Source: Lunularia cruciata
Taxonomy: Eukaryota; Streptophyta; Marchantiopsida; Lunulariales; Lunulariaceae
Length of the DNA stretch: 64,000 nt
Direction of reading: 5' to 3'
Assembly: GCA_948567375.1 (NCBI GenBank)
Contig: OX419756.1
Span: 35,354,333-35,418,332, forward strand
Below the pieces are notes generated by a model that searched no databases, was not told where the DNA came from, and saw only the letters and a program-made list of their open reading frames with translations. The position numbers were made by a program, and so were the translations under genes. Every line of letters starts with the position of its first letter. The stretch's first letter is position 1. Positions 20,680 to 63,456 of this stretch are shown here, in pieces.

Positions 20680-21319
20680 TCTCTTGTCTCTTCAATCGCA
20701 CCCACCTGCAGATCCAAAACAGCTCGTGTCAAAATTCCTCACAGAGAAGGAAGGACGTCGAAATTGGGTTTTGTTCCGTGAGCAAGGCTATGAAGATTTG
20801 CGAGGATAGACCAGAGATTCTTTCAACCACCGCTTAGTCTTCAGATAGCCAAACGAGGGTTTCTTCCTGCTTTGTTTCTTACCCCGGAGAAGAGGTAAAA
20901 CCATCTCAATCTCTTCTTATAATCAGCATAGGTCTCTCACTCCTTAAAGACTCTAGTTATGAGGCGAGAGTTCGTGAAAGAGTAACAAGGTGACCCAGCC
21001 TGTTACGCGAAATTGGTTAAATTGAGATTAAGATGTAAATCTTTCTTTCTCTGGAGGGTAACTTTCTCAACGACATAATTATCATGGTCAATCTACAGTT
21101 TAAATCTTATGCGGAAACCGGATAAATGTACAACAAGTAATTTTTTAATTTATATTAAATTAAATTATTAATTATTTAATGTAGGAACAAAGTGTTTGAT
21201 ATTGGAAGGTTGAATTAACTACCGCACAATATATGAATAGAAGCATATATAATCCGGAACCCTCGTGCCGGATTCATATAACTCAAGATAATATTTAAAC
21301 ATAATAATTTTGAATTTTA
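20680..21319. other. 5-prime flank of RsmD, AT-rich beyond 21060
   Basis: This is the promoter side of the RsmD gene and the left remnant of the original spacer between RsmD and LdpA. 21060-21310 is strongly AT-rich. The minus strand just upstream of the RsmD ATG contains ctgcaggtggg about 40 bp out, which could be part of a 5-prime-UTR intron, but this is not provable here. No other gene is seen. Confidence 0.45.
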
Positions 21320-43218: not shown

Positions 43219-43669
43219 TGTCACGCCATTTGTAGTTCCGCATCTAGATGCTCGGACACTGGAGTTCCAGTGATGGTAGTTAGAGTTATTCTAGCAGTTT
43301 CTCAGGGACTACTTTCCGACGGTTAGATTTCGTGTTCGGGGTACTGACTTCACGGTGGGGCCCACCGTCACTTTGCACCGTTTGCACCGTTGAGTGTGCA
43401 GTCAGCGGGACCGTTAGGGTTTCAGGGCTAGCTCGAGTCCAGGGGGTATAGTTTCGAAGTGAGCTCCAGAGAGCTCACTTCTCTGATGTTGAGCCTTCGA
43501 GTTCCTGGCTATGGTGGACAGAGGCCGGCGAGCGTCACCTGGATTCTCTATGCTTGAGTGGGTGTGGCTTGACTGTAATCAGTGCCCAGTTGTTGGCAGT
43601 TTATAGAGTGACAGATCAAGTACTGATCTGAGTTGAGTTGAGTTGAGAGTGTTAAGCAATCTGATTACA
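43219..43669 (+). repeat. 5-prime partial LTR of the methyltransferase gypsy element
   Basis: Matches 60466-60914 with about six differences and ends in ttaca, followed by tcagag, which may be part of an initiator-tRNA primer site. It lacks the first 107 bp found in the full LTR at 60359. It contains a 10-bp-stem hairpin at 43457-43480. Confidence 0.85.
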
Positions 43670-44384
43670 TCAGAGAAGTGAAGTCAGGGGGAAATCGGGT
43701 GCAGGAACGTTGAGTGTTGGTGGTATCTCCAAGCTCGGTGGATCGTGGTAGCTCAATTCAGGTTCTGTGTTTCCCTAGTGTGCAGAAGCTCGTGTAGTTG
43801 ATGCAAAATTGGCAGTTAGGCGGACGGTGTGCGGAAGCGCTGGCCAAATTTTGAGCAAAGAAGGAGCAATTTTCGAGCAGTGTTGTGATTTTGAGCTCAG
43901 GAGGTGAAGGTAGGACCAATTTGCTGCGAGTTGGGCTCAGAAAGTGAAATTGAAGGTGGAGTTGGAAAGCTCTTCTCATGAAATTGTGATTTGGAAAAAC
44001 CCGTTTTGTCAATTTGGCTCGAGTGGAAAGTTAGCGGGGGATTTGGCGGACACCCATCTTTAGGGTTTATGTCAGATTTTACGTCAGATTTACGTCAGAT
44101 TTTGGGCCAGAATTGGAGGAGTTTCGCTGTTTGGCCAGATTTGGAGAAGTTTCGCTAGTTTGGAGGAGTTTTGTAGATTTGGAGAAGTTTCGCCAATTTT
44201 GGAGGAGGTTCGAAGTGGCAACAAGAAAGGCCTCATTTGGCTGAATTTTGGCGCTTCGAGGCATAGGGCTGTGGGCTATGAGAGGCTACGAAGGGCCAAA
44301 AGGGCCAGCAAGCCAGCTTGCTGGCGTGAGGCTAGCTAGTTTAGTGTAGATCTTGGTCATTGGTTGGCAAAATCTGCCTTTCTT

Positions 44385-44470
44385 GCTAGATTGTGCGCAA
44401 CAGGGTTTGACCCCTAGATCTCTTGTTCCTAGACTGGTGCCCTAGCCAACTGGTCCACCCTCACTTGTTG
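44385..44470 (-). repeat. tRNA-derived SINE-like head
   Basis: On the minus strand TGGACCAGTTGG (44446-44457) resembles the A box of a pol III promoter, and GGGGTCAAACCC (44402-44413) resembles the B box (GGTTCGANNCC), about 33 bp apart, as in tRNA-derived SINEs. The arms do not form a proper cloverleaf, so it is not a tRNA gene. It lies in the leader of the methyltransferase gypsy element. The SINE 3-prime end is not clear. Confidence 0.45.
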
Positions 44471-44923
44471 TCATAGTGACTGTGCCACTGTTATCTATAC
44501 ACATGTAGCTTTGGCTAGGAGAGGCAGTTTGATCCTATTCTTGGTGATCCTGGTAGCTTAGGACTTAGATACGAACTACTCTTATGTCAAATGCCAAATG
44601 GTGGCAGAGTCAGTCCCGTGTTGTGTTATGAGATGGAGGGTTTTCGTTTAGATTTCTTGTGATTGGATCCCCTCCATTCTCTGCTTCTTGTTTGTGCACC
44701 ACGTTTGTGTGAGGTGCCTTGACTTTTGAGCGTTGGTGCTCTGGTGTGCTCTCGATGGTGAGGCTGGAGTGATGACCAGTCAGACTACCTTTGTTTCTCT
44801 CCGGTGAGGTAGGAAGTGATGACCTGCAGACCGTGAGAGTGCATGTTATGATGGCAGGTTACAGGTTGCCTTCTCCCCTAGTGTAGTTATCTCAGTAGAG
44901 TTACATTAGTGGGAGGTGTTTAG

Positions 44924-45698
44924 TTGGTGTTGGCACGTGGTGGTATTGGCACTTGGTGGGATACTTGCGGTTGCGACTTGTGGTTGCAGTTGGTGGTTCG
45001 GGTTTGCTGTTGCAGTTACGTGGTCATGACGGAGTTCTTTGGAGATTCCAGAGGAGTTAGCCCTGCAGTACGTAGTGGGTTTACTCGGAGTGGTGCTCGG
45101 TATCAGCCTGTATCTCAGGTCCTAGTGAGGGAGGAGATTGACTCTGAGTTGGAGTTCGACACAGGAGTTGATTCAGTTGAGAGTGCACTTAGTGTGTCCG
45201 CACTGTTGTTGTGGGACATGGACAAGATTTATGGGGCCTCCAAAGGCCCTAGGCGTTACTCTGGTACAGTGGGTACCATTGAGTTGGATGACTTCATCCA
45301 GGAGTTTGATAGTTGGTGTGATCTGCAGCAGATGCGGAACCCGACTTTGTTCACACCTTTCATGGCATGGAAAGGGTTGTTTCAGCACTTGGAGGGTCCA
45401 CCAATGGACGACTACCATGAGTTCAGGAGAGCTCATTTGGAGGAGATTGAGTTATGGAGACAGTATTGGTCTCCACACTATGTCTCCATCACTTCAAGCT
45501 CAGTGGCCAGGAGTAGATCGGTTGTACCCACGAGTTCTAGCTCGAGTAGTGTTGGTGGAGCTAGTGGAGGTGCACTAGCTGGAGATAGTGCTACTACGAG
45601 TGGAGGTACCGCTGCAGGAGGTGGTGTGGTATCGGGGTTTAACCCCATGGTTGAGTTCTTCCTCTGTTTGAGGCAGAACTACCAGGGAGTGCGGACTG
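44924..45698 (+). pseudogene. gag N-terminal part of the methyltransferase gypsy element
   Basis: Open stretch of about 260 residues with a helical, Trp- and acidic-rich region (WDMDKIYG, DDFIQEFDSWCDLQQM) followed by a Ser/Gly-rich linker, typical of retroelement gag without conserved catalytic residues. The young nested gypsy element begins at 45699 and separates it from the remaining gag. Confidence 0.65.
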
Positions 45699-46375
45699 TG
45701 AGCCGGCCTGTCTCTCACTCAGGATGAACCTCTGATGGCTATTATGGTAGCGCACCATGGACTAAGAAGGCAAGGAACCCCAACTCCATCATACTCCTCC
45801 AAGGCTAACACTCCAAGACTCAAGACATTGCTCACTAGAGAACTCAATGAGAGAGAGATAGTTGCAAATGAAAGGATGATGAGTACCTCCTCACTCCTTG
45901 TTTATATACTTGTGAAATAGTTAGGTACCAAAGTTACTAATTACCGTAGTAACTCAAGTTACTAGACTAAAAGTCAAGTAAAGTCAAAAAGTAGAAAGGA
46001 ATATCCATTCACATGGGCATATTCCCCTTATCTTGACCCAACCACTAAAGCAAGGATTCCTTCACATGGGCTATCCTTGGACTAAAGAAGAATCCAAAAC
46101 AAAAAGGCTTGCGGGCCCAAGAGTTCTCAACTCTTTCCCCAAAGCCAAACACCTAGGAATAATACCAAGTCAACACACTAAAATCCAAAATAGTGGTGCT
46201 CATCTTTTCTACTTCCTCTAAAGTAAGGTCCCATCTATCTTAGCTATGACTAACTTTAGCTAACCATGACTAATATAGAACCATCCTTTATCTCTATATA
46301 AATAATATCTCTTAAGTATTTGTAATACCAAGCTAAATATCACAATACCACACACATGCACAAATGGGTGTTACA
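45699..46375 (-). repeat. LTR of the nested young gypsy element (3-prime in element orientation)
   Basis: 677 bp, almost identical to 52822-53498, with the polypurine tract on its inner edge. Confidence 0.95.
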
Positions 46376-46423
46376 TTTACCCCCGGACTAAGTTTTCACT
46401 TTGTCCTCAAAGTGAAGGTCTCT

Positions 46424-49400
46424 CTACCTTCTATGGTACATCTTCAACTTATCATGGTTAATCCTATCAAAGTGTCTTCCTCCCAACTCCTTGAGATCAT
46501 AAGTGTAATTTCCCCACACCTTCTCTACTATGAAAGGTCCAAAGTACTTAGGCAAAAACTTCTTTTGTACTCTCTTGAATCGAATGGAATCAAACAACAT
46601 TACCCAATCACCTTCTTTGAAAGGCTCCACCTTCTTCTTGCCTTGCCTCTTGTCATAGCTCTCCTTTTGTTTCCTTTGGGCTTGCTCCACTCGAACCATA
46701 GCAACTGCTCTTGCCTCTTCCAACTCCATGAGTTGATCCTTCCTTGACTTCTCTGCATCACTTCCTTGTGCTTTCTTCAATCTCCTATGAATGCTTTGGA
46801 AGGTAGGAAGATCAAAGTGAATAGGTAAGGTAGACTCAATACCATACACCAATTGGAATGGAGAATATCCAGTGGAAGTCTTCATGGTTGTCCTATACTC
46901 CCACAAAACTGCATGAATCCTCTTGTCCCAATGATGTTTAGCCCCCTCCATTTCTGCATCTTTGGCCAACATCATGCACAAGGTCTGATTGGTTCTCTCT
47001 GCCAAGCCATTGGAATTTGGCTTATAGGATGTAGTTACTCTATGTGTGATAGAGAAATGTCGTAGCATGGCTGTAGTAATGCTTCCTGTAAACTCTCCTC
47101 CTCTATCAGAAACCAACTCCAAAGGGCATCCAAACCTAGTGATAATGCGTTCATAAAGAAATCTACCCACTTCATCTTCATTCTTGTCCCTCAATGGTCT
47201 AGCCTCAACCCACTTGGTAAGGTAATCAGTAACTACCACAATGTACCGATTGTTCCTTGGGGTTCTATTGAGAGGTCCTACAAAATCAATTCCCCACTTC
47301 TCAAAGGGTCCTAGCAATGGAATTGATCTAAGTGGTGGAGTGGATGTAGACTTTCTAGCAAAAGCTTGACAAACATGACAAGTTTTGCAATAATCAAGAC
47401 AATCCTTGAAAATCCCTCTCCAATGGTAACCTGCATCTAGAATCTTGAAAGCAGTCACCTTTCCTGCAAAGTGTCCTCCACATACTAAACCTTCATGAAA
47501 CTCCTTTATGAGTAGGATAGACTCTTCCTTACCCACTGCTCTTCGAAGTAGACCATCTGCTCCTTGGTGAAAAAGAATATCATCCACCATTGTGTAAGGT
47601 CTAGATCTTGCTGCAAGGGCCTTCCTCTCCCTAGCATGCATCCCTTCTGGATAGTTACCTCTTGTCACAAAATCCACAATCTCCTTGTACTCCATTGGAA
47701 CCTCTTGAGTGACTGAGATTGTCATGAGCTCCTCATCCGGGAAGGAATCATCTACTGGCTCATCTCCATCATGATCATAGGCTCTAGATAACAAATCAGC
47801 ATTTGCATGTTTCTTTCCTGGCCTATCCTCAATTGTGTAGTCATACTCAGACAAGAGAATCATCCACCTTGCTAGTCTCCCTTCAACATTAGGCTTGTTG
47901 AAGATGTACTTCAAAGCCTTGTGATCCGTGACAATTGTGGCTTTCCCTCCAATCAAGTAGTGTCTAAACTTCTTGAGACCAAAGATCACTGCCAACCCTT
48001 CTCTCTCTGTGACAGAGTAGTTTTTCTCTGCTGAAACCATCTGCCTACTAGCATAAGCTATTGGATGATCATGCCCATCTTGGTCTAATTGACTAAGAGT
48101 GCATCCTATAGCTACATTAGAAGCATCAGTGTAGAGGATGAAAGGCTTACTCCAATCAGGTTTAGCAAGAATTGGAGCTACAACAAGGGATTGCTTGAGC
48201 TCCTCAAAAGCTTTGAGAGCCTCCTTGTCTTCCAAAATCACCATGTAATCTACACCCTTCTTCATGTAGATGGTCAATGGATAAGCCTTGTTGGAAAATG
48301 AGAAGATGAACCTCCTATAGTACCCAACCATTCCCAAGAATTGGCGTAACTTTGTCAAGCTTGAAGGGAATGGAAGGTCTGAGATTTTCCTCACCTTCTC
48401 AGGATCAACTGCTATTCCATCCTTGGAGATGATGTGCCCCAAAAGTAGACCTTCTTCACATCCAAAAATGCACTTCTCTGGGTTGAGTGATGCATTTGCC
48501 TCATCCAAGCGTTGCAAGACTTTGATTAGGTGCTCAAAGTGCTCCTCCTTGCTCCCATAGACACAAAAGTCATCAATGAAATCTCTCACAAATTTCCCAA
48601 TGAAAGGTTCAAATACCTTGTTCATGAACCGTTGGAATGTGGCTGGAGCATTGCAAAGCCCAAAAGGCATGACCTTGAAAGCGTAAGTTCCCCAAGGTGT
48701 GGTGAATGTGGTGAGTTGTTGATGCTCTGGTGCAATCTTGATTTGGTTATATCCACTATAACCATCTCCAAAACTGTACCTCTCATGACCTGCAACCTCC
48801 TCCAAGATCTCATCAATGAATGGCAATGGGTAGTAGTCCTTCTTGGTAACAGCATTGAGCTTCTTGTAATCCACACATACCCGAAGCTTGCCATTCTTTT
48901 TCTTCACAATGACAATTGGAGACACCCATTCTGAATTCTCCACCTCAAAGATAAATCCAGCCTCCTTGAGCTTATCAATCTCCTCCTTCACAACCAAAGA
49001 TATTGGTGGGCTAATGCGACGTTGCTTTTGGCGGATTGGTCTTGCATGTGACTCCACCTCTATCTTGTGCTCCTCCAAGGTGACTTCCTTCAAATCCTTG
49101 TAACTAAAAGCAAACACATGGATGAACTTGCGGAAAATCTCCTCAAATCTCACCTTCTCCTCCTTGGTAACATTTGGGCCATACTTGAGGGTAGATAACC
49201 TTCTCTCTACCTCCTCAAGTGTCAATGGTGATTTATCTGGGTCCTTCAAAACCTCTGGCTTAGGTGCAAAATCCATAGCACACAAAGGATACACATCTGA
49301 ATCAGATTCAGATTCATCCTCCTCCGTGGAAGTCTCCTCTTCCATGCTTGTGTCCACACCTGAAGCTCCTCCTTCAGAATCAGATTCCCAATAATCAGAA

Positions 49401-51250
49401 GATGGGGTATCTGAATGTGAAGTGTTGGTGGTGTTAGTCACAGGAACAGTGACTCTATGGTTTGATGGCCCAATCCTTAAGTACCCTTTGTGCCATCGAT
49501 CAGTTGTGCGTGCTGCTCTCAACCATGGCCTCCCAAGAAGTAAGTCATAGCTTGAATCCTTCAAGACTTGGAAAGTCATGAGATTTTGAACTCCCATAAC
49601 TGAAACTACCACCTTATCCATCACTCCTACTGGTCGAACTTGTTGCTTGTTTGCCATGCTCACCACAAATGTTGAAGCTCTTGAGGGTATCATACCCAAC
49701 TTCTTCATCAACCTTTCTGACATGGCATTCACTGCTGATCCTCCATCAACCAATGCATCCTTGATGTTGTGACCATTCACTCTCACATCAATCTTGGAGG
49801 CATATTCACAAGCTTCCCATGGTGCTGGCTTGGCATCCACCACCCCCATTGATACTGGAACTTTTGCCTTCTTCTTCTTTTTGCTCCTTGTAGAACTCAA
49901 ACCACCTCTAAGCTCCTTTCTCAAGGTAGGGTTCAAAGCAATTAATTGGCCCACTGTGATGTTAGCCTTGTGACTACCAACATCCTCCAACACATTGTAG
50001 TTCCATTGTTGCTTTGAGATCAAGAAGTCCTCCATCCCCAACTTCTTCCTTGGAGTCTTTGTTGTTGATGGTGTTGAGGTGCGAGTGCTCCTAGTAGACA
50101 TAGGAGTATCCTTGCTTGAAGTAAATCCTTGAGAAGAGTGAACATCCTCTGCAAAACGAGCTCTCTTCTTCTCTTGTGCCAAAAGCTCCAAATTAAGACC
50201 CTTGGAGTTTGAGCACTCTCCCTTCTCATACTTGCTCTCAACCACATCTATGGATGCTATCCCCTTACCTTTGTTGGGATTAGGAGCCACTTGGGTTTCA
50301 CTACCTCCCTCTTTCCCTCTATTGGCTCCCTCATAACCCCTTCCTCCATGGTAAGTGGAATTTGGGCAATTCCTTTGGATATGGCCTCTTCCTCCACAAC
50401 CAAAACAATTTCTATCATTGAAATTGTTGGCTGGTTGGCCTCCTCTATATGGATAGTTTCCATAACTCCTAGGTCCTCTCCCTACATTCTGATCCACCTC
50501 TCTCTTCTCCCATAGTTGCACCACATTGATCTTGAGATCCGCAAGTTGTTCTGTGATGGTTTGGAGTGGATCTTTTGGTGGAGGTGCAAGAATTGGAGCA
50601 ACTACTACTTGTGGTGCAACCCTTGTCACCAAAGTATCAGAAGTTCCACCATACTTGTAGCCTTGAGGAGGATGCACAACCTCCTTCACCACCAAATCAC
50701 TCTCATCCCCTTCCAAACTCTCCTCCATACGAATTGCGATCTTGATAGCTTCAACCTTGGAAGAAGGTTTCTCATATCTCACCTTGCTTCTAATTTGTGG
50801 TCTCAATCCTCCCACAAAATTCTTGGTGAGCATGGCCCCTATGCCAATCATTGTAGTCTCCACATCATCCCCACCCTTCTTCAACACTATGCGAAATCTG
50901 GACTCCAACTTTTCCACTCTTTCCACATAGACCCTCACTTTCTCTCCATCTCCTTGCTTGAGAAATGTAACCTCACTCATCAATCTCTCATAACTCTCAT
51001 CAGGAAGAAATTTCTCAATGAGTGCTGAAGTCAAAGTCTCCCAAGACTCCTCTTCCCCCTCTCTCCTCTCTCTCTTTTGGTATTCTGACTCATACCATGT
51101 AAGTGCTGCATCCTCAAAGAAATCTGGTAATAATGAGGCCCACTCATTCTTCCTCCTCTCATTGTTTCCTATGCAAGCTCTCTTGAAGTCTCTCACAAAG
51201 GCCTCCACATCTTCTCCATCCTTGCCAAAGAAAACTGGAAGTTTCCCCAT
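46424..51250 (-). CDS. gag-pol polyprotein of the young gypsy element, 1608 residues
   Basis: Single uninterrupted frame. In order: retrotransposon gag helical domain (residues about 5-170), a CX2CX4HX4C zinc knuckle (CFGCGGRGHIQRNC, about 279-292), a linker with basic and acidic runs, aspartic protease with VDGGSAVNAM (about 498-507), RT with FMPFGL-type motif B and FIDDF as motif C (about 780-960), RNase H with YTDASNVAIGC (about 1040-1170), integrase with CGGHFAGK...H and CKTCHVCQ (about 1255-1290), core WGIDFVGPL, VSDRGGEFTG and NSNGLAERTNQ (about 1320-1410), and an SH3-like end. No chromodomain follows. Gag and pol are fused without a frameshift, unlike many gypsy elements. Motif C has Phe for the usual Tyr. 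Confidence 0.93.
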   Translation of the reverse strand: MGKLPVFFGKDGEDVEAFVRDFKRACIGNNERRKNEWASLLPDFFEDAALTWYESEYQKRERREGEEESWETLTSALIEKFLPDESYERLMSEVTFLKQGDGEKVRVYVERVEKLESRFRIVLKKGGDDVETTMIGIGAMLTKNFVGGLRPQIRSKVRYEKPSSKVEAIKIAIRMEESLEGDESDLVVKEVVHPPQGYKYGGTSDTLVTRVAPQVVVAPILAPPPKDPLQTITEQLADLKINVVQLWEKREVDQNVGRGPRSYGNYPYRGGQPANNFNDRNCFGCGGRGHIQRNCPNSTYHGGRGYEGANRGKEGGSETQVAPNPNKGKGIASIDVVESKYEKGECSNSKGLNLELLAQEKKRARFAEDVHSSQGFTSSKDTPMSTRSTRTSTPSTTKTPRKKLGMEDFLISKQQWNYNVLEDVGSHKANITVGQLIALNPTLRKELRGGLSSTRSKKKKKAKVPVSMGVVDAKPAPWEACEYASKIDVRVNGHNIKDALVDGGSAVNAMSERLMKKLGMIPSRASTFVVSMANKQQVRPVGVMDKVVVSVMGVQNLMTFQVLKDSSYDLLLGRPWLRAARTTDRWHKGYLRIGPSNHRVTVPVTNTTNTSHSDTPSSDYWESDSEGGASGVDTSMEEETSTEEDESESDSDVYPLCAMDFAPKPEVLKDPDKSPLTLEEVERRLSTLKYGPNVTKEEKVRFEEIFRKFIHVFAFSYKDLKEVTLEEHKIEVESHARPIRQKQRRISPPISLVVKEEIDKLKEAGFIFEVENSEWVSPIVIVKKKNGKLRVCVDYKKLNAVTKKDYYPLPFIDEILEEVAGHERYSFGDGYSGYNQIKIAPEHQQLTTFTTPWGTYAFKVMPFGLCNAPATFQRFMNKVFEPFIGKFVRDFIDDFCVYGSKEEHFEHLIKVLQRLDEANASLNPEKCIFGCEEGLLLGHIISKDGIAVDPEKVRKISDLPFPSSLTKLRQFLGMVGYYRRFIFSFSNKAYPLTIYMKKGVDYMVILEDKEALKAFEELKQSLVVAPILAKPDWSKPFILYTDASNVAIGCTLSQLDQDGHDHPIAYASRQMVSAEKNYSVTEREGLAVIFGLKKFRHYLIGGKATIVTDHKALKYIFNKPNVEGRLARWMILLSEYDYTIEDRPGKKHANADLLSRAYDHDGDEPVDDSFPDEELMTISVTQEVPMEYKEIVDFVTRGNYPEGMHARERKALAARSRPYTMVDDILFHQGADGLLRRAVGKEESILLIKEFHEGLVCGGHFAGKVTAFKILDAGYHWRGIFKDCLDYCKTCHVCQAFARKSTSTPPLRSIPLLGPFEKWGIDFVGPLNRTPRNNRYIVVVTDYLTKWVEARPLRDKNEDEVGRFLYERIITRFGCPLELVSDRGGEFTGSITTAMLRHFSITHRVTTSYKPNSNGLAERTNQTLCMMLAKDAEMEGAKHHWDKRIHAVLWEYRTTMKTSTGYSPFQLVYGIESTLPIHFDLPTFQSIHRRLKKAQGSDAEKSRKDQLMELEEARAVAMVRVEQAQRKQKESYDKRQGKKKVEPFKEGDWVMLFDSIRFKRVQKKFLPKYFGPFIVEKVWGNYTYDLKELGGRHFDRINHDKLKMYHRR

Positions 51251-51485
51251 CTTAACCCCTCACTATCTTTCTTTTCTCTCAATTTTTTTTTTCTCTTTTC
51301 TTTTCTCTCACTCTATTACTAATAGAGTATATACATGACTAACACCATCTGAGAATAATCCACTCTAGGGAACACAAAAGGTTCAGGTTGCTCCAAGATT
51401 TCTATAGCAACATCAAATCCTAGAGTGCATATTAATCTAACTCTCATGGATAGTTTATCCATAAGTTGAAAGATTATCTCCATCA

Positions 51486-51983
51486 CTAATCTTGAGAACT
51501 AGCTGATGAAGGTGGTAGTATTTCTGTAGCTGTACTAAGACTCTCTCCAAGATCCTTCACCAAAGTTTCCAAAAGTGCTTTTACTCCACTACACTCATGT
51601 CCTTTTGGAAGTCCTTCAACTCCACAAACCTCACACAACTCCTTGGTCTTAGATCTTCTCCCTCCCAATCTTGGTGAAGAAGGTCCAACATGCAAACCCA
51701 AGTCAAGTAAGCCTCTCCTTTCCCTCAATCTCTTGCTCTCAAAGGTTAATGGACATGAACTTGCCTTATGTCCCTTCTCTCCACATAGAAAGCACTTAGA
51801 CTCACTCTTTCCTCCAAGTGGTGTAGGTTTTTGGATCCTCTCAACACTCTCTTCAAATTCTATTGTAAACTCTCTTTTCCTCAAATCCACCCCTACAATC
51901 ACCTCAAACCCTTGGGGAACCTTGCATAATCTCAATTTCCACTCTTGATGACCCTCCATGTTCCCAAAGATGAATCTAAACAC
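51486..51983 (-). CDS. accessory zinc-knuckle protein upstream of gag-pol
   Basis: 165-residue frame between the 5-prime LTR and gag-pol of the young element. It starts with a globular-looking segment (WKLRLCKVPQGFEVIVGVDLRK), then CFLCGEKGHKASSC, a CX2CX4HX4C knuckle, then CEVCGVEGLPKGHEC, which is Cys/His-rich but not a standard knuckle. The rest is Ser/Leu-rich. It is not a duplicate of the gag knuckle region, as the surrounding sequence differs. It could be an RNA-binding leader protein; function is unknown. Confidence 0.55.
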   Translation of the reverse strand: MFRFIFGNMEGHQEWKLRLCKVPQGFEVIVGVDLRKREFTIEFEESVERIQKPTPLGGKSESKCFLCGEKGHKASSCPLTFESKRLRERRGLLDLGLHVGPSSPRLGGRRSKTKELCEVCGVEGLPKGHECSGVKALLETLVKDLGESLSTATEILPPSSASSQD

Positions 51984-52821
51984 TCAAACATGCTTTTTGT
52001 TGATCTCAAACTTCTCATGCATGAGATCTCCACTCTGCAGAATTGACCCTTCCTCACAATGTCACTCAAATCTCTCAACCAGTATGTCACAGTCATCTGA
52101 AATTTTTCACACTTGATCACAACTCTAGGGCGTCCCTCCCTGCAAAATTTTAGATCTTTTCATCGAGCCATTTGGCCTAGACGCCTTTCTATTCAGCACC
52201 CATATTTCAGATTTGGTCTGAAAACCACCCCCCTCACTTCAAAAACTCATAACGCCCTGCGCAAAAACGATCTCTCTCTAATTTTTGTGGCAGCAGGTAG
52301 GATACAATGCACTGAATTTTCTTGGAAATTTTCAGGACAATTCACTGAAAATTGAAGAAATGGCAGACTCTGTACAATTTTCCAGAGAGCATGCAGTTGC
52401 GGGAGCACTTTACCCTATCAACTTTCAAAAATTCTAGCCCAGTGCGCATAGAAGCTCTCTCAATAATTTCAAGTGTGCTAACTGAAAGATAACCCAAGCT
52501 ATCATGTGTAGAAATCTCGAGTCCAGATCTCAAACTTGAGATTTTGCCCAAAATCACCTTAATCCCCAAAATCTGCAATCCACCTGACACAATCTCTCCA
52601 ATTCCTCTCATGTGTACAAGATGTACAAAATCACCTCAAAGACATCATAATGAACTACAGGGTATACAAATGGATCTTGGTTCTCTAACATAAGTTCAGC
52701 CCTCTCCTCTCCTAATGTTCTCTCCAAGTGAGCTCTCATAGCCTCCTTCTGCCTAATGTAGAATTGGACGCGGAACATTATCTTGCCTTCTAGAGAGGTC
52801 CCGGCAACGGAACCAAAAATG

Positions 52822-53498
52822 TGAGCTGGCCTGTCTCTCACTCAGGATGAACCTCTGATGGCTATTATGGTAGCGCACCATGGACTAAGAAGGCAAGGAA
52901 CCCCAACTCCATCATACTCCTCCAAGGCTAACACTCCAAGACTCAAGACATTGCTCACTAGAGAACTCAATGAGAGAGAGATAGTTGCAAATGAAAGGAT
53001 GATGAGTACCTCCTCACTCCTTGTTTATATACTTGTGAAATAGTTAGGTACCAAAGTTACTAATTACCGTAGTAACTCAAGTTACTAGACTAAAAGTCAA
53101 GTAAAGTCAAAAAGTAGAAAGGAATATCCATTCACATGGGCATATTCCCCTTATCTTGACCCAACCACTAAAGCAAGGATTCCTTCACATGGGCTATCCT
53201 TGGACTAAAGAAGAATCCAAAACAAAAAGGCTTGCGGGCCCAAGAGTTCTCAACTCTTTCCCCAAAGCCAAACACCTAGGAATAATACCAAGTCAACACA
53301 CTAAAATCCAAAATAGTGGTGCTCATCTTTTCTACTTCCTCTAAAGTAAGGTCCCATCTATCTTAGCTATGACTAACTTTAGCTAACCATGACTAATATA
53401 GAACCATCCTTTATCTCTATATAAATAATATCTCTTAAGTATTTGTAATACCAAGCTAAATATCACAATACCACACACATGCACAAATGGGTGTTACA
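52822..53498 (-). repeat. LTR of the nested young gypsy element (5-prime in element orientation)
   Basis: 677 bp with the probable primer site just inside. The following ggactg is the second copy of the target duplication. Confidence 0.95.
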
Positions 53499-53504
53499 GG
53501 ACTG

Positions 53505-54175
53505 ACAAGCTGAGGAGCTTGCAGGAGTTCCAGCGGAAGGCTGGAGAGAGCCTACGCGAGGCATATACTCGCATGAGGCGGCTGATCAGTTTCACTAAGG
53601 GAGTTACTGAGGCCCAGGCAGTCCAGTTTTGGTATGGGATACTGGACAGGGAGTTGCGACGTAGAGTTCGTGATGCTACGTTGTTGCAGGCTACTTCGCC
53701 CACTTTGGCAGTAGTCTTTGGTTTGGCTGAGCGTATTGAGCTCAACATGGTGGAGGAGAGAGTGGTGACAGCTGGATTTGGTAGAGAGACCTCATCCACG
53801 GTTGTGACTTCTTCTAGAGTGCAGCAGAGTGCACCACGCCCAGTTGGTTTTCGAGGACAGGGTGGACAGCCCAGATCCTATGGAGCGAGTGGAGGGCCTA
53901 GTGGAGTTAGACCCTTACCCTCATTTTCGGGTCAACAGCAGTCAGTGAGTGGTGGTGTTGCTTGTTGGACTTGTGGTGGACCTCATCATAGGAGAGAGTG
54001 TACTCAGGGCAGCGGACCTGATACCTCTGGTGCATCACAGCCAGCACAGAGGCAGTGTGAGCATTGCCACAGATTTGGTCACACTAGTGACCGGTGTTTT
54101 GACCTACACCCAGAGTTACGGAGTGGTAGGGCTGCTATGGCAGATAGTAGAGGAGCTCCAGTTCATGGAGGATGA
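53505..54175 (+). pseudogene. gag C-terminal part with two zinc knuckles
   Basis: Continues the gag region after the nested element. It has a retrotransposon-gag-like helical part (LQEFQRKAGESLREAYTRM), then two knuckles: CWTCGGPHHRREC and CEHCHRFGHTSDRC, each close to CX2CX3-4HX4C. Nucleic-acid binding for genome packaging is the family role. Confidence 0.75.
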
Positions 54176-54247
54176 GGTGGTAGAGGTGGTGGTAGAGGAT
54201 CTACACCTAGTAGGGGTGCGGTACCTGCCCTTACTTCTGACACAGCT

Positions 54248-55579
54248 ATGGCTACTCGGATTGAGCAGTTGGAGCAGAGATTGGCTAGTATGGCTATTGC
54301 TCAAAGGAGATCAGATTCGGGTGCTGAGGCTTCCACCTCATATGCTGGTGATAGAGATGCTTTGGACTTCATGTGCGGAGCAGCACATGTGGATGCATCT
54401 GCAGCAGTGACTAGGAGTGCAGTACGTGCTCCAGAGCCTAGAGGAGCATTAGTGGAGTTGGACCCACAGAGAGGAGAGGTTGGGAGACAGGTTAGACTTC
54501 CCCAGTCTTTCATGCTATTTGAGGCATTGCAGACGACATCCATGGTTCCTAGACGTCCCAGTGCAGGTGTGGTAGGTGGTGATGGAGTACCTGCTAGTCA
54601 GCCACCTGCGACTACACAGACTGAGTCTAGCATGATGTTGGGGGCGGCTCAGCTGATTATGCGGCATCCTTTATTTTCAGCCAGTGACATGTTTACATTG
54701 GGAGTTGACCCAGCCCCAGTGTTCCGGTTGGCTGCCACGTTGTGTGAGAGTAGGGATGGTGCAGTTCCTACTACTAGAGCAGAGGTGGTTGGTAGTGGAG
54801 CTGACTTGGTTGAGGAGCATGGGATCTGTTCAGCGACCAGTGGGTTGTGGCAGGCAGCAGCGGCTAGACTGGAGGAGTTGCCAGCTAGACCGGCCTTTGA
54901 GAGAGCGCGGTTTACACCTGGTGTTGTCCTATTGGATAACCAGAGGGGGATCTTTCGTTTAGTGGGACCTTCAGGGAAGGTCTATACACCACAGAGAGTC
55001 TTGTTAGACTCTGGTGCGCAGCCCCTTATGTTGGGGAAGGCTGTAGTTGTTGGTCTGGAGTTACGGAAGACCGATGTGGAGAGGTGTCCATTTCAGATCC
55101 AGACATCTCTTGGTGGTGGTTCAACACAGTACATCACACGTGGAGAGCTTGTTGTCCAGGTTCAGCTTGGTCATCCGACTGATAGCTCGGTGGTGAGAGC
55201 TCAGGCTATTGCGACAATAGCTGAGTCATATGATGTGCTAGTTGGGGGAGCAGTGTTATATCCTATGGGTTTCAGTATTGACTATTGGGAGGAGACAGCC
55301 TCTTATAGACCTGGTTGGCAGTCTGGTGAGGGACGGGTATGTCGCCTACCAGTACGCTTCAGTAGTGGCAGTCTTGGCTCACTACAGTCTGTGACCATGG
55401 CAGCATCAGTTTTAGCTTTCAACGGTGCAGTTACTTGGCCTGGTGACTTGTTGGAGGGGAACGCCCATGCAGAGGATACTCCAGTACCAGAGGAGATCAC
55501 TCGGCTATGGAGTACGAGTGGGATTGTTCCATCCACCTTGGATGTTCCATTGTGGAGTTCAGAGGAGGCATTGCAGTAG
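54248..55579 (+). pseudogene. aspartic protease region of the methyltransferase gypsy element
   Basis: A 443-residue open stretch. Residues about 230-360 form a retropepsin-like domain: RVLLDSGAQPLMLG holds the catalytic DSG near 55004-55015, and SYDVLVGGAVLYPMGFSIDYW gives the flap-side and C-terminal hydrophobic-hydrophobic-Gly motif. The first 200 residues are Ala/Ser-rich linker of unknown role. Confidence 0.7.
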
Positions 55580-55714
55580 CATGCAGATCAGTTGGTGCAG
55601 CAGGCTTGGAGTGGAGCCTTCGTACCATCAGGGGATGAGTGTGAGGATGAGCCTCCAGAGGCAATTGCTTTGACACCTCTGGATACCACACTCATTGCTT
55701 GACAGTATCCAGTA

Positions 55715-57004
55715 GAGGAGATATGTGTATTGGAGTTGTTTGGTGGGATCATCACCGGACTAGCTGCGGTGTTATAGGCGGGTATCCGAGTACAGAGGTA
55801 CTTGTATGTAGAGAGAGATGAGACTGCTAGGCGAGTCTCTCTACATCATGTGGCACACTTGGCCTATCGGTATCCGGAGTTATTACCAATGTCAGTAGTC
55901 AGAGGTTACCAGAAGGCCTTACCAGGAGACATTTCCTTACTGGGGGCGCATGACCTAGAGAGACATGGGCTTGTTCACTTGGTGATTTCTGGATGGCCAT
56001 GTCAGGGACATACACATGCGGGCCGTGGTTTGGGTCTTCAGGATCCTCGTTCTGGTGTGTTTTGGGAGATGTTACGGATATTACGACATCTCCAGGTTCA
56101 TCAGTCTGTTTCTCCAGCTTACCTTTTGGAGAACGTTCCTTTGATGGATGATTCTCGCACTAGAGTGGTGGCGAGTACACATCAGGTCCATTCTTGGATG
56201 GGACCTGCTGTATTGTTAGATGCAGCCAGAGTGGGATCACGGGCTCATCGTCTTTGTCTTTGGTGGACGAACCTCTTACCCAAAGAGGTTCTACAGCATA
56301 GTTATGATGGGATTCAGCGACTAGACCACATTCTTGCTGATGATATCTTGGATGCTGGACGTCAGTCTCAGATAGTGGTAGTGGCTGATAGGTCACCTAT
56401 GGCAGTGGTGAACCTAGTTGGACAGCCTAGAGCTGCATTTCCCATACTCATGAGTTTCCCAAGCTCTCATGCTTTTCAAGAGGGAGGACCTGGACTTGTT
56501 TGGGACTCACAGTTACAGCAGTTGGTGGAGCCCAATGTTGATGAGAGAGAGCGGGCGATGGGTTTTTGCACCGGTATTACCGCTGTTCCAGCAGTGTCAG
56601 AGGCATCTAGGCGTCAGGTGTTAGGTCAGGCTATGGACCTGAACTGTTTGACCTGGATTGTGAGCCTTGGTTTGGCAGAGCAGCGTAGGATGCACTTGGT
56701 AGGCATCACCACTCGGACACTTGTGAGCCTTGTGCCTATCGAGACGATTCAGGCACATGCTGGGGGCGATGGACCGAGTGGACATGGTATTCTTGGGACA
56801 CATCCAGTAGCTACTAGGGAGAGTGGTCTACTTGGAGTCCATCCAGGTGAGCGTGGGCTACTTGGATTACACCCTTGGTCCACATGGGATGCAGCCAGAG
56901 GACGTATGGAGCTTGCAGCCAGAGTGGAGGGAGTTTTTCACACAGAGGTTGGGACCTCTAGTGGTCGGGAGCATGACACCATTGCTCCCAAGGGCCCAGT
57001 GTAG
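55715..57004 (+). pseudogene. cytosine-5 DNA methyltransferase domain inside a gypsy pol
   Basis: C5 methyltransferases move a methyl group from SAM to C5 of cytosine in DNA. Motifs appear in canonical order: motif I as VLELFGGI (near 55730), motif II/III as YVERDETARR (near 55805), motif IV with the catalytic Cys as ISGWPCQGH (55985-56011), motif VI as LLENVP (near 56123), motif VIII as RVGSRAHRLCLW (near 56228), then ERERAMGF (near 56545) and motif X as LGQAMDLN (near 56620). This covers the whole catalytic fold. It lies between protease and RT on the same strand, so it belongs to the element. Closest class is uncertain: PCQ argues for a DNMT1/CMT- or prokaryote-like catalytic loop more than DNMT3 (PCN). 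Charophyte and dinoflagellate retrotransposons with methyltransferases have been reported. Confidence 0.82.
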
Positions 57005-57109
57005 CAGCCAGTCAGTACGTCTTCCACTCCTACTACAGTTACAGAGGATACTTGGGAGCTAGATCTTGGACCCAAGCTTATTGGAGAGGAAAGACGGAGG
57101 GTTTGGAGG

Positions 57110-58560
57110 TTCTTGAGTAGTCACACGAGTTGTTTTGCCTTCAGTATGAAGGATTTGGGTGCTCTGAAGGGACATGGTATACGGATTGAGCTGACTAGCG
57201 ACACACCAGTTTTCCGACATCCTTATCGATATAGTGATATGGAGAGGACATTGATTCAGAGCCGGAGTAGTGACCTTTTTGAGGCTGGTTTGGTGGAGAT
57301 TTCACATGGAGAGTATGCATCAGCGACAATGATGCCAGCCAAGAAGGATATGCATGGCAACTATACAGATGTGTGGAGGTTACCGTCCTATCAACCGACA
57401 GACCAGGGCTGATCGGTATGCCATGCCTACACCGGAGGAGATTTTTGATGTGTGGAGATTACCGTCCTATCAACCGACAGACCAGGGCTGATCGGTATGC
57501 CATGCCTACACCGGAGGAGATTTTTGATGCGATTGGGCATGCAAAGGTCTTCAGTACTTTGGATCTTCGAGCAGGATATCATCAGTTGCCAATTAGGGAG
57601 GAAGATAAGTCCAAGACAGCATTTTGGGCTATTGATCCTCACGGCAAGGATGTGTTATATCAGTGGAGGTTCTTACCATTTGGGTTAAAGAACGCTCCTG
57701 CTGAGTTCCAGAGGGTCATGGATAGGATCCTAGCTGGATTGGATTTTTCTCGGTGCTATATTGATGACATTTTGGTTTATAGCACTACTGTGGAGGAGCA
57801 TGAGAGACAGTTGTTGGAGGTGTTTGAGAGGTTGAGATCTCATGGACTCAAACTACATCTTGGGAAGTGTAGGTTCTTCCACGAGCAGGTTGAGTATTTG
57901 GGTCACACAATCTACCCCGGAGGACTTGGTGTCCAGCAGACCAAGGTGGAGGCTATTGCACGTATTCCTCGGCCTACGGATGTGAGTAGAGTGCGAGCAT
58001 TCCTTGGGTTGGCAAACTTCTATCGCCGCTATGTTAGAGGATTTAGTGCCATTGCCAAGGCCTTGACAAAGCTGACCAAGCTTACACATGAGTGGTGTTG
58101 GGGAGATGAGCAGGAGAGAGCTTTTGTAGAGCTCAAGGAGAGGTTGACATCTGCTCCTATTTTGAGGAGACCGATCAGGGGACGACCATTTCAGGTTCAC
58201 ACTGATTGGAGTATGTTGGGGCTTGGAGCGGTGCTCACCTAGCATGATGATGAGGAGAAGGAGTTTGTGGTGGCCTATGCTAGTCGCTCCAACAATTCAG
58301 CGGAGGCGAAGTATAGTTCATATGAGGGAGAGTGCTTGGCAGCAGTTTGGGCAGTAGCACATTTCCGATGTTACCTATTTGGTAACCCCTTCACTCTCAT
58401 CACTGATCATCAGCCGCTGAAGTGGTTGATGAAGTCCGACAAGCTTTCAGGGAAGCTTGCACGATGGGCTCTGATTTTACAGGAGTATGATTTCACGGTT
58501 GTTCACAGACCTGGAGTGGTGAACCGTGATGCAGATGGGTTGAGTAGAAACCCATGTCCC
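57110..58560 (+). pseudogene. reverse transcriptase and RNase H of the methyltransferase gypsy element
   Basis: RT landmarks are DVWRLPSYQPTDQG-type text at the fingers, FSTLDLRAGYHQLPI (motif A, near 57555), FLPFGLKNAPAEFQRVMD (motif B, near 57670), CYIDDILVYS (motif C, near 57755) and FLGLANFYRRYVRGFS (thumb, near 58000), all typical of Ty3/gypsy. RNase H follows with the HTDWS (near 58197) and ADGLSRNPCP (near 58530) regions. Confidence 0.9.
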
Positions 58561-58799
58561 AGCCAGGAGGATCAGACCGGAGCACGTTGGCATGGTGAGA
58601 CAGATGAGGAGATGGTGCCAGGTTGGCATGCATCGGCCTTTCTGTGTATATTTGCAGAGACTTTGGTGGTATCTCTCTCAGCGCATATAGGAGGAGTTAT
58701 TGAGGTCACAGATCCAGAGAGTGAAGATATTGGTACAGTTCAGCGAGACATTCATGATGATGTCTTAGTGATGGACTATCTTTGCACTGGTGTTGTGGG

Positions 58800-59631
58800 T
58801 GGCACAGTTGGGGCCAAGGAGAGAGACCGTGTTCTTCAGCGAGCCAGACGGTTCAGATTGGAGGGTAAACACCTTTTGCGTGTATGGGAAGATGGTAGAG
58901 TGCGAGTAGTACCACTTCCATCACAGAGACCACAGTTGGTCCGTCATGTTCATGAGGAGCTAGGACATTTTGGAGTAAAGCGTACATATAGCTTACTTCA
59001 GAGTCATTATTGGTGGCACGGTATGCAGACCGAGGTACAGCAGTTTGTTGCCAGATGTATGGTTTGTGACCGAGTTAGAGCATCATTCAATGCTCCTACG
59101 CCACAGTTACACCCATTACCTATCATGGGATTGGGTTACCATTGGAGTTTGGACTTTGCCGGACCTTTACCGCTGACTGTGAGACATCATCGGTATGTTT
59201 TGGTGATGGTGGAGCACTTCTCCAAGTGGATTGAGTTGGTGGCACTTCCTGACAAGTCTAGTGAAGGGACAGCTTACTCGTTCCTGGATCGAGTTCTTAG
59301 TCATTTTGGTGCACCAGCTGAGGTTTTGACTGATCAGGGTACAAAGTTATTGGGAGAGTTTCAGGTCTTGTGTGACAAGGCTTTGATTGATCATCGTACT
59401 ACATCCCGAGATCACCCTGAGGCAGATGGCTTAGTAGAGAGAGTGGTTCAGACGGTGAAGAGAGGATTGCGAAAGTATGGTTTGCAGAGAGGCCACTTGG
59501 GAGATTGGGATCTCCAGTTACCTTGGTTGGCCATGGGCTATCGGTTCAGCCGGCAAGCCTCCTTAGCATCCTTCTCTCCATACTTCCTACTCTATGGACG
59601 AGATCCAGATTTACCTGCAGCCATTCGTTGA
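58800..59631 (+). pseudogene. integrase of the methyltransferase gypsy element
   Basis: HHCC zinc domain: HEELGHFGVKRT then CMVCDRVRA (58950-59085). Catalytic core: WSLDFAGPLP (near 59143), VLTDQGTKLLG (near 59325) and HPEADGLVERVVQTVKRGL (near 59412), supplying the D, D and E. The frame continues after 59647 into a C-terminal SH3-like/PHD region. Confidence 0.9.
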
Positions 59632-60048
59632 GATGCTACTATAGTTTTGGACTTGGATGACCCCGATGTATGGATGAGCGCATGTTCTCAACGGGCAGAG
59701 ATCTTTCGGAGAGTGATGCCGATGGCCTTTGAGAACTTGGCGATTGCTCAGCATAGAGATACTTTACGCTATGCTACCATTCGAGGAGGAGGTTATAGAC
59801 CCTCGATCCATCGATTTCATCAAGGCGACTATGTATATCTACAGCAGACAGCACCGACAACACTTGATGTTTCTACAGGCCGCACTATCTTGAGAGTGCG
59901 TGAGGTTTTGCCATCTGGAGTCCTTGTGTTAGAAGGACGTGATGGTGTTGTTTGGAAGGATCATGTGCGCAATTGTGCGCCATGCCACCTTCCAAACATT
60001 GATGGTACTATGGACCCAAGCTTGGCACTTGTACGTGCAGGCTTGAGG

Positions 60049-60183
60049 TGTATGTTATGTGGCTCTTCTGGTGGAGCTGCTACTATGTTAGTGTGTGATA
60101 GCTGTTCGAGAGGATGGCATATGGCATGTATGACTCCTCCCCTCACGGTGGTTCCTCAGGGATAGTGGTTATGTCCTAGATGT
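60049..60183 (+). pseudogene. PHD finger at the C-terminus of the gypsy pol
   Basis: The C4HC3 pattern is complete: CMLC, CDSC, GWHMAC and CPRC, with the invariant aromatic before the last Cys pair and a PPLxxVPxG turn, as in histone-H3-reading PHD fingers. It lies after the integrase core and an SH3-like stretch (HRFHQGDYVYL near 59810), the position where chromoviruses carry a chromodomain. A role in choosing insertion sites through histone marks is inferred by analogy with chromodomain integrases. Confidence 0.75.
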
Positions 60184-60358
60184 ACTTGACCTATAGCTAG
60201 TTCATTCTTTATATGGTATAGATTGCAGACAGGCGACTAACGATGGGGCTCCATAGCACCCGGCCTCCTGATCTTTGCCCATTAGAGGGTATACCATATA
60301 CCTAGAGTAGATGGCTATCTGGAGTTAGAGGGACCTAACCGCCAGCTAGGGAGGCAAT

Positions 60359-60914
60359 TGTGGCACTTTAGAGTCTATGTATGACTTATGTGTGAGTTGT
60401 GCTTTTATAGTGTATGATGTTGACAGCGATGTATGTTGTGTAGCAATGTATATACGCACGACAGCTGTCACGCCATTTGTAGTTCCGCATCTAGATGCTC
60501 GGACACTGGAGTTCCAGTGATGGTAGTTAGAGTTATTCTAGCAGTTTCTCAGGGACTACTTTCCGACGGTTAGATTTTGTGTTCGGGGTACTGACTTCAC
60601 GGTGGGGCCCACCGTCACTTTGCACCGTTTGCACCGTCAAGTGTGCCGTCAGCGGGACCGTTAGGGTTTCAGGGCTAGCTCGAGTCCAAGGGGTATAGTT
60701 TTGAAGTGAGCTCCAGAGAGCTCACTTCTCTGATGTTGAGCCTTCGAGTTCCTGGCTATGGTGGACAGAGGCCGGCGAGCGTCACCTGGATTCTCTATGC
60801 TTGAGTGGGTGTGGCTTGACTGTAATCAGTGCCCAGTTGTTGGCAGTTTATAGAGTGACAGATCAAGTACTGATCTGAGTTGAGTTGAGTTGAGAGTGTT
60901 AAGCAATCTGATTA
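60359..60914 (+). repeat. full-length LTR of the methyltransferase gypsy element
   Basis: Starts TGTGGCAC immediately after the purine-rich ctagggaggcaat, a plausible polypurine tract, and contains first the 107-bp segment X (60359-60465), then the 450-bp segment shared with 43219-43669. The expected terminal ca is absent at its junction with the following X copy. Confidence 0.7.
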
Positions 60915-60915
60915 T

Positions 60916-61022
60916 TGTGGCACTTTAGAGTCTATGTATGACTTATGTGTGAGTTGTGCTTTTATAGTGTATGATGTTGACAACGATGTATGTTGTGTAG
61001 CGATGTATATACGCACGACAGC
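60916..61022 (+). repeat. extra partial LTR (segment X only) at the 3-prime end
   Basis: 107 bp matching 60359-60465 with about two differences. It ends at acagc, exactly the point where the 5-prime partial LTR (43219) begins. Confidence 0.75.
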
Positions 61023-61112
61023 AGCGACGAGCAACAATGAGTGGCGTAGAGCAACGTCGAGCAACAACGAGCAACAATGAATAGCGACGAGCAACAATGA
61101 GCAGCGACGAGC
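61023..61112. repeat. short tandem repeat based on agcgacgagcaacaatg
   Basis: Five to six imperfect units of about 15-18 bp directly follow the gypsy element's last partial LTR. Confidence 0.7.
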
Positions 61113-62178: not shown

Positions 62179-62724
62179 TCACTGCTAGCTTAAATTTAAG
62201 CAGGCATGCTTGGTTAGACTTTTTGAGATGAATTGTGGGTCGAGGCCCAGGGTGGAAGAGATATGCATATAGGTCGGTTTGTTCTGCCATCATCACCAGA
62301 AGATTTACTTCCGAGTCACAAGAATATTTCTAAGTTGTTATATTTGTCGTTATGAATGTTAATACTGTACATTGTGATTCAACGCAATATCCTGCTCGAA
62401 GTGTTGCTGAATAAACGCCAACATGTCATTGGCGTCCGGGATTGGATCAAAAAGTTCGGGTTGGGTTAGATCGAGGGCATTCGATGTTGGATGAAGTTCT
62501 TTTCTCAGCAACACTGTCACTTCCTGACAGAAAGTATACATTTTCTAGGTGTTACGTTTTGGAACAGGAACTTTAAAAGTGACAATGTTTTGTATTTGGA
62601 CGACATAATATGATCTTCAGCTCAATCAATGCATCAATATATATTGTTAGCGAAAGCACCTTTCAGTTATCTTACTATTTGAATTACCTGAAGAGAAATG
62701 GGATTTTTTAACATTTGTTTCTTG

Positions 62725-63456
62725 CAGGTAGCCATCGTTTCCCGAAATCCAAGGAAATCCATGGTTACAATGGATATTTCCGAGAAAGTAGAACCCAATC
62801 ACGAGATGACCAATTCTAGCTCCAAGAAGATCAAGTTGGACCAGAGAGCGACTGGTGCACGTTCGAGAAAGCTGCGATTTCGCGTCGAAGATCATGGAGC
62901 TGTTCGTCTATATTGCCAGGCTGAAGTTTCTCACGGTGATCAAAGGTCAAACACCAACAGGACAAGAAAACTCTGTCAGAGACTGGTAGATTTCTTAGAT
63001 ATATCGACTGGATCAACTGCTGCACGTTCGAGAAAGATGCGATTTCGCGTCCGAGGTCATGGAGCTTTTCGTCTATATTGCCAGGCCGAAGTTTCTCACG
63101 GTGATCAAAGTTCAAACACCAACAGGACAAGAAGACGCTGTCAGAGACTGGTAGATTTCTTACATATATCTAGATTCCTTGATTGTACTAGAGAAGTGGG
63201 AATCCAGATTGGAGGTTATGGAGCTTTTCGCCCATATCACCAGGCAGAAGTTTCTTATGCCGGTGAAAGTTCAAACATACAGGGGAAAGAAGTTTTTCGC
63301 GCTGGTGACAATTCAAGCACCGAAAGAAAAATTAGACAATTTCGGATACTGGTAAGTTTCTTAAATATATCTAGATTCAGTGACCGTAATAGAGAAGAGA
63401 GAATCCAGACCGGAGGTGGAGAGCATTTTGTCCATACGATCGTACTCAAGAAGTGA
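62725..63456 (+). CDS. unrecognised repeat-containing coding region, possibly repeated exons
   Basis: After a good acceptor (tttcttgcag, ending near 62728) one frame stays open to 63456. Three to four tandem units of about 165-190 bp (starting near 62855, 63025, 63190 and 63375) encode a motif of the form (R/I)-x-R/G-GHGAF-RLYCQAEVS followed by SNTNR and CQRLV. Each unit ends in ctggtagat or ctggtaagt, which look like splice donors, so each may be an exon with a short intron-like tail rather than a continuous protein. Units one and two are about 90 percent alike; later ones are diverged. No known domain is recognised. The first unit is preceded by a Lys/Ser-rich segment (SSSKKIKLD), a possible nuclear signal. 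Confidence 0.45.
   Translation, partial: QVAIVSRNPRKSMVTMDISEKVEPNHEMTNSSSKKIKLDQRATGARSRKLRFRVEDHGAVRLYCQAEVSHGDQRSNTNRTRKLCQRLVDFLDISTGSTAARSRKMRFRVRGHGAFRLYCQAEVSHGDQSSNTNRTRRRCQRLVDFLHISRFLDCTREVGIQIGGYGAFRPYHQAEVSYAGESSNIQGKEVFRAGDNSSTERKIRQFRILVSFLNISRFSDRNREERIQTGGGEHFVHTIVLKK

Follow-up and report, generated by a model that had tools for sequence, protein, structure and literature searches.

What is a cytosine methyltransferase doing between the protease and the reverse transcriptase of a retrotransposon, and does it belong there? The question is raised by positions 55715-57004 of the 64,000-nucleotide stretch of DNA analysed here (the 'window', whose positions are used throughout), which encode a C5 cytosine methyltransferase of the DNMT3 type at that place in a Ty3/gypsy element. 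The answer that we consider probable is that the locus preserves the remains of one member of an abundant Ty3/gypsy family, probably self-priming and resident in what looks like a land plant, that encodes such an enzyme, and whose mechanism is as proposed below.

A DNMT3-type methyltransferase between protease and reverse transcriptase

A preliminary description of the locus had placed a C5 methyltransferase between protease and reverse transcriptase on the same strand, and the order of domains bears this out: an aspartyl protease motif, DSGA (recognized by motif at 55008-55019, forward strand), lies upstream, a match to RVT_1 lies downstream, and the methyltransferase motifs follow one another in order. 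The domain itself occupies 55715-57001 of the forward strand and was assigned by comparison with Pfam, PDB and NCBIfam. A match to a C5-methyltransferase profile had been set beforehand as the test of its identity, and the window frame at 55778-57004 gave one, to Pfam PF00145 (DNA_methylase), with E=7.8e-8 and 32.5 bits against a cut-off of 22, covering residues 50-129 only. This uninterrupted frame of the window copy lacks motif I.

When the methyltransferase of L039, an uninterrupted copy of the same family, was compared with solved structures, the best match was DNMT3A (E=3.8e-11, residues 4-188, with a second, weak stretch at residues 276-310), followed by DNMT3B (6.4e-8), HaeIII (7e-4), DRM2 (6e-3), HhaI (0.02) and DNMT2 (about 0.05), a ranking that puts the domain of this copy nearer to DNMT3 than to other C5 methyltransferases. 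The catalytic motifs I (LFGGIxTG), IV, VI and VIII occur in order, without a DRM-like rearrangement. Motif IV (PCQ, with the catalytic cysteine) lies at 55997-56005 and motif VI (ENV) at 56129-56137, both on the forward strand, and among 30 copies of the family PCQG is present in 29 and L.ENV in 27. The motif VIII region, which reads AHRLR-WW in copies L039-L041 and HRLC in the window copy, is intact as AHR.R.WW in only 20 of the 30; an ERAMGF...LG region is also visible after it, and the C-terminal motif region of L039 is divergent from DNMT3 in the solved structures. Among the NCBIfam profiles only dcm matched, far below its cut-off, and no relatives were confirmed among viral contigs and prokaryote genomes by peptide patterns, which are sensitive to close relatives only.

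The copy in the window

Comparison with pieces of another copy delimits the element at 43219-61020. A first assumption, that the window copy is 5'-truncated, was ruled out by the presence of its first terminal repeat and 5' part at 43219-45698. The first open reading frame (ORF1) begins with the 5' part of the gag region (44924-45698, forward strand). An ordinary LTR gypsy element, foreign to the methyltransferase element, has inserted into this frame (45699-53498, reverse strand) and divides it in two. The remainder of ORF1 (53500-57001, forward strand) carries gag with two zinc knuckles, recognized by eye, the DSGA protease motif and the methyltransferase; Pfam recognized neither gag nor protease in ORF1. 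The Pol part that follows (57005-60189, forward strand) comprises reverse transcriptase, RNase H, integrase (H2C2 and rve) and a PHD finger from about 60049, and is broken in this copy.

The window copy is dead, a fossil of its family, because it bears the nested 7.8-kb insertion, four premature stops in the remainder of ORF1 (about 53500-57001), a duplication of about 80 bp in the reverse transcriptase and a stop that interrupts the PHD finger. The nested insertion appears to be recent, since its 677-bp LTRs are 99.85% identical; it is flanked by duplicated (G)GACTG, 5 or 6 bp long, and holds an open gag-pol frame of 1611 amino acids on the reverse strand (pol ORF 46424-51259).

Elsewhere in the window, the reverse strand carries a second gypsy element, in which SH3_Tf2-1 and a chromodomain (Chromo) were recognized (23360-26965), and a likely host gene (19621-20691) that matches Pfam Cons_hypoth95, which we take to be an RsmD-like rRNA methyltransferase family; the N-terminal extension of its product could be a plastid transit peptide. 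At 62692-63456 an open frame of 254 amino acids shows repeats of about 55-60 amino acids by eye and no Pfam match.

The family in the host genome

The methyltransferase is kept in other copies of the family. A search of the same genome with the methyltransferase stretch gave 14,879 loose first-look candidates, and the best 102 of these, which were scored, all cover 407-408 of its 408 residues at 93-100% identity, several of them inside open frames of 1428-1431 amino acids. The whole element measures 9.1-9.7 kb in 27 of 30 pairs of ends. Because these pairs were chosen by eye from neighbours on one strand, almost always about 9 kb apart, their uniform length gives weak support to the presence of the methyltransferase in every member.

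The coding frame and its conserved UAG

In all 30 copies read, which were the best matches to the window and not a random sample, the methyltransferase frame closes at TAG, and the six bases that follow are CAGCCA in 29 and CAGCTA in one (57002-57010, forward strand, for UAG and CAGCCA in the window copy). UAG CAR YYA is described as a type I readthrough signal in the available text of PMC11166343, and this motif, as a sequence context, is present in all 30. In L039-L041 the frame continues past the UAG into reverse transcriptase, RNase H, integrase and PHD finger, and by Pfam the order of reverse transcriptase, RNase H and integrase, with an rve integrase, is that of Ty3/gypsy elements. The methyltransferase thus reads as the last domain of a Gag-protease-methyltransferase frame whose stop stands in a leaky context; its assignment to the pol region, as first described, holds for its position between protease and reverse transcriptase and fails for the frame to which it belongs. 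Encoded before the conserved UAG, it would therefore form part of the Gag-protease-methyltransferase product and be expected in excess over Pol.

The PHD finger that had been noted in the same element was found after the integrase by Pfam in the open frames scanned (59632-60165 in the window, and copies L040 and L041). It is closest to the PHD fingers of CHD4, KMT2D, DPF3, KDM5, PHF21A and ATXR5, several of which bind unmethylated H3K4. No match to the Chromo domain was obtained in the open frames scanned with Pfam.

What the methyltransferase may do

The most likely target of the enzyme, as we infer it, is the element's own cDNA. According to this proposal the methyltransferase would be made in Gag-like amounts, because it is encoded before the conserved UAG in its leaky context, and would enter the particle; once packaged, it would methylate the new cDNA no later than integration, and each copy would arrive marked at CG. 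The PHD finger might in turn tether the integrase to chromatin, perhaps chromatin with unmethylated H3K4.

The pattern of variants among the 30 copies suggests modest purifying selection on the methyltransferase in the source copies. Codon variants confined to one copy comprise 40 that change the amino acid, five stops and 22 that are silent; those found in at least three copies comprise 12 changing and 16 silent (Fisher p=0.025 against the singletons), with 35 codons that have several variants dropped from the test. The same test on the protease and reverse transcriptase stretches was uninformative, with only 8 and 1 of the 30 copies, respectively, passing the ungapped filter. Decay from C to T, per site and per copy, runs at 0.0079 in CG, 0.0095 in CHG and 0.0016 in CHH contexts. 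This concentration at CG and CHG is what methylation by host enzymes would give, to which the CHG part points, and does not show action by the element's own enzyme.

A possible, if somewhat unlikely, alternative is that the methyltransferase is kept for another job, such as methylation of the element's RNA, self-damping, defence against DNA viruses or a non-catalytic structural role. Proposals of this kind are in print, RNA methylation and slowed retrotransposition in the available text of PMC5890265 and antiviral roles in that of PMC6338049; furthermore, the related KnitGypsy-Dnmt3 domain of the alga Klebsormidium showed no activity in yeast, a result that its authors call inconclusive (PMC5890265). 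That result also counts against the cDNA proposal, as do the incomplete retention of AHR.R.WW among the copies, the C-terminal divergence from DNMT3 and the CHG share of the decay. Against such roles, DNMT3A is the closest structure and DNMT2 falls far behind (E of about 0.05), and the catalytic motifs are retained at the frequencies given above (PCQG in 29 of 30 copies, L.ENV in 27). A genome in which copies decay at CG and CHG and which houses a methylating parasite makes the transposon's gain from methylating DNA testable, by comparison of its new insertions with gypsy families that lack a methyltransferase.

Permuted repeats at the ends of the element

The preliminary description had also placed the methyltransferase 'inside the LTRs', and this part has to be given up, since the ends of the element are split direct repeats. 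Self-comparison of three copies with their flanks gave the order A1-internal-B1-A2-B2 with TG...CA termini, in which the left end consists of A only and the right end of B-A-B; identical complete LTRs at both ends were not encountered, and conventional LTRs are thereby ruled out. The nested element, with its complete LTRs, served as an internal control for this analysis. In the window copy, all on the forward strand, A1 is 449 bp long (43219-43667, starting TGTCACGCC, 98.4% identical to A2 of L041), B1 is 106 bp long (60358-60463, ending ACGACA), and A2 (60466-60914) and B2 (60915-61020) complete the right end. Between B1 and A2 lies GC (60464-60465), within a palindrome, GACAGCTGTC, at the junction (60460-60469).

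The window copy is flanked by GCAG on both sides (43215-43218 and 61021-61024, forward strand). Across the 24 copies used for the analysis of ends (20 paired end pieces, L039-L041 and the window copy) a 4-bp target duplication is exact in 21, of which 19 were found by script and two, L040 and L105/L106, by eye; it has one mismatch in two more and was left unjudged in one, whose right end is interrupted. Mismatched pairings of ends agree over 4 bp in 8 of 552 cases. The TG...CA ends with a short target duplication are as found in Ty3/gypsy LTR retrotransposons.

The bases that directly follow A1 are complementary to A itself near its position 257, a pairing scored in 27 copies. In the window copy the putative primer-binding site, CATCAGAGAAGTGA (43668-43681), is a perfect 14-nt complement of a putative self-primer donor within A1, TCACTTCTCTGATG (43475-43488, A position 257, both on the forward strand), at the predicted 5' end of the RNA. 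Watson-Crick pairing holds at 14 of 14 positions in 14 of the 27 copies, at 13 in 12 and at 10 in one, for which the script may have picked the wrong segment. Of the 14 bases of the primer site, 8 were preset by the pattern used to find it; complements of at least 12 nt occur in 16 of 27 copies, compared with 4 of 5400 shuffles. A primer site complementary to the start of the RNA is the arrangement of Tf1-type self-priming, and this is the mode of priming that the site after A1 suggests. At the other boundary, a purine-rich tract precedes B1 in all six copies read; this putative polypurine-like tract reads AGGGAGGCAA in the window copy (60348-60357, forward strand), directly 5' of B1, and AGGGGGGCGA in L039 and L041.

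The junctions also give a measure of the size of the family. The 18-mer across A1 and the primer site has 1670 exact occurrences in the genome, so that the family is abundant, with at least that many exact left-end junctions. The 18-mer across A and B is commoner, with 2724 exact occurrences, and solo A-B remnants left by recombination between A1 and A2 are a likely cause of the excess.

How the permuted ends may arise

A comparison of A1 with A2 in four copies found no fixed difference and five lineage variants common to both repeats of a copy, and the two repeats are therefore taken to be renewed together in each cycle. B1 and B2 had no shared and five differing sites, too few variants for joint renewal to be tested. 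Among the 24 copies the joint between A and B is exact in 19, differs by a single altered or extra base in three, is aberrant in one (L106) and is unreadable in one. Two further joints, in L048 and L049, are also aberrant, with 5'-internal sequence that extends past the primer site, and other bases, before B; all three aberrant joints look like products of end-joining.

The permuted repeats suggest an integration intermediate that is circular or end-joined. Reverse transcription bounded by the purine tract and the primer site would yield a molecule of the form B-A ... B-A, the outer ends of which would be joined to give the A-B joint; the integrase would then cut the palindromic B.A junction, GACAGCTGTC, and the inserted form would be A-internal-B-A-B, bounded by TG...CA and flanked by a 4-bp duplication. 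The limits of reverse transcription would accordingly be B and A, and those of integration A and B. Cleavage of a palindromic 2-LTR junction by HIV-1 integrase in vitro is reported in the available text of PMC1905944. The full proposal, of an element with a DDE integrase in which cDNA ends are obligatorily joined, an internal palindrome is cut and permuted copies result, with the cDNA methylated beforehand by a packaged DNMT3-type enzyme, is offered tentatively, as quite possible yet short of probable.

One prediction of an end-joined circle is at odds with the data. Its two B-A units would present two identical B.A sites, and cutting at the other site would yield a mirror form, A-B-A-internal-B. 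Only two pattern matches to this form were obtained, both of them right ends with aberrant joints, compared with 1004 exact A1-internal stretches; B-like sequence was absent from all 25 left flanks of A1 that were examined, and B stood at the end of none of 24 further left flanks. The mirror form, and with it a tandem circle, was rejected on these results. That only one of the two forms is seen, and that most joints are so precise, counts against the end-joining model and is left unexplained by it.

The same two observations favour a second route, in which the repeats would be copied as in DIRS/PAT elements, A2-B2 being read from the RNA and B1-A2 acting as a splint that completes the ends, with no end-joining. 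The layout equals split direct repeats, the A-B joint seldom departs from precision (exact in 19 of 24 copies and off by a single altered or extra base in three), no mirror form was seen, and the repeats of KnitGypsy are called DIRS-like by de Mendoza et al. (PMC5890265, in its available text). We nevertheless regard this route as unlikely: the element has an rve integrase and, in the open frames scanned with Pfam, no tyrosine recombinase; it makes 4-bp target duplications; the purine tract and the self-complementary primer site lie exactly at the boundaries of B and A; A1 and A2 are renewed together; and the aberrant joints hold 5'-internal sequence or truncated B. Whether circles serve as precursors of integration is an old question, and for the end-joining proposal the permuted ends make it testable from genome sequence and extrachromosomal DNA.

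Decay, host genes and the origin of the domain

It is very improbable that the UAG is mere decay of CAG to TAG within what was natively one long Gag-protease-methyltransferase-Pol polyprotein. Elsewhere in this stretch of 430 codons, stops fall in 11 codons, in one to three of the 30 copies each, and TAG is indeed the commonest among them (9 of 11 codons); at the end of the methyltransferase frame, by contrast, both the TAG and a following CAR YYA are found in 30 of 30.

The host has methyltransferase exons of its own, labelled DNMT3-like, DRM-like and CMT-like by motif, labels that we take as working assignments. That a host methyltransferase gene or pseudogene lies by chance beside or inside a retroelement is nevertheless scarcely conceivable, and is refuted by family-wide conservation: the stretch is intron-free in 102 of 102 scored copies, runs in frame into the UAG in all 30 copies read and shares about 30% identity with the DNMT3-like exon of the host. 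In blastp comparisons the element's methyltransferase scored 58.9 bits against a contiguous stretch of human DNMT3A; of the two host pieces, the DRM-like one gave 38.9 and the DNMT3-like exon 37.0 (14.1 and 21.1, respectively, by phmmer), an uneven comparison in that the host pieces are shorter than the human stretch. On these scores it appears unlikely that the domain was captured recently from the DNMT3 gene that the host now has. The host looks like a land plant because dirigent genes are present (35 matches in the genome, 34 of them over the cut-off), which to our knowledge are specific to land plants; its DNMT3-like exons suggest that it is not an angiosperm.

Comparison with known systems

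Elements of the DIRS/PAT type have split direct repeats, a tyrosine recombinase and no target duplication. The family described here has the layout A1-internal-B1-A2-B2, and thus split direct repeats, in common with them, and differs in its rve integrase and 4-bp duplications and in that no tyrosine recombinase was found. Tf1/sushi chromoviruses, as described in the available text of PMC10085805, are self-priming, as the present family probably is, and the coding region of several relatives is likewise interrupted by an in-frame stop; unlike the present family they have conventional LTRs, whereas here the repeats are permuted and a PHD finger is present, and Pfam matched no Chromo domain in the scanned frames.

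Methyltransferases borne by retrotransposons have been described before. De Mendoza et al. (2018) reported that a charophyte and dinoflagellates harbour gypsy and DIRS elements with a Dnmt3; SymbioDIRS-Dnmt3 and SymbioLINE-Dnmt belong to other retrotransposon classes, and two SymbioDIRS methyltransferases methylate CG de novo in yeast (PMC5890265, available text). A 2025 paper mentions that DNMT3 is carried by LTR Copia and DIRS elements in streptophytes and dinoflagellates, in a text whose available part does not contain the word bryophyte (PMC12344493).

The closest precedent, judging architecture by its published description, is KnitGypsy-Dnmt3 of the charophyte alga Klebsormidium nitens. 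According to the available text of PMC5890265, the two have in common Ty3/gypsy domains, an intronless Dnmt3-type methyltransferase in the coding region, DIRS-like repeats and purifying selection on the methyltransferase, a likeness of architecture as judged from that text. Unlike KnitGypsy-Dnmt3 as described, the present family resides in a probable land plant, in many copies; it has a PHD finger, a word absent from the main text on KnitGypsy-Dnmt3, and, compared with that description only, a conserved UAG of leaky type, 4-bp duplications around TG...CA termini and a putative primer site complementary to the element's own A repeat (PMC5890265).

Within the open-licence literature, from which absence from print does not follow, no land-plant case appears in the available texts of PMC11244446, PMC8616336, PMC9861306 and PMC9033089, and a 2019 opinion paper describes land plants as being without methylase-encoding transposons (PMC6338049, available text). 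If the host is a land plant, the methyltransferase-bearing family described here contradicts that statement.
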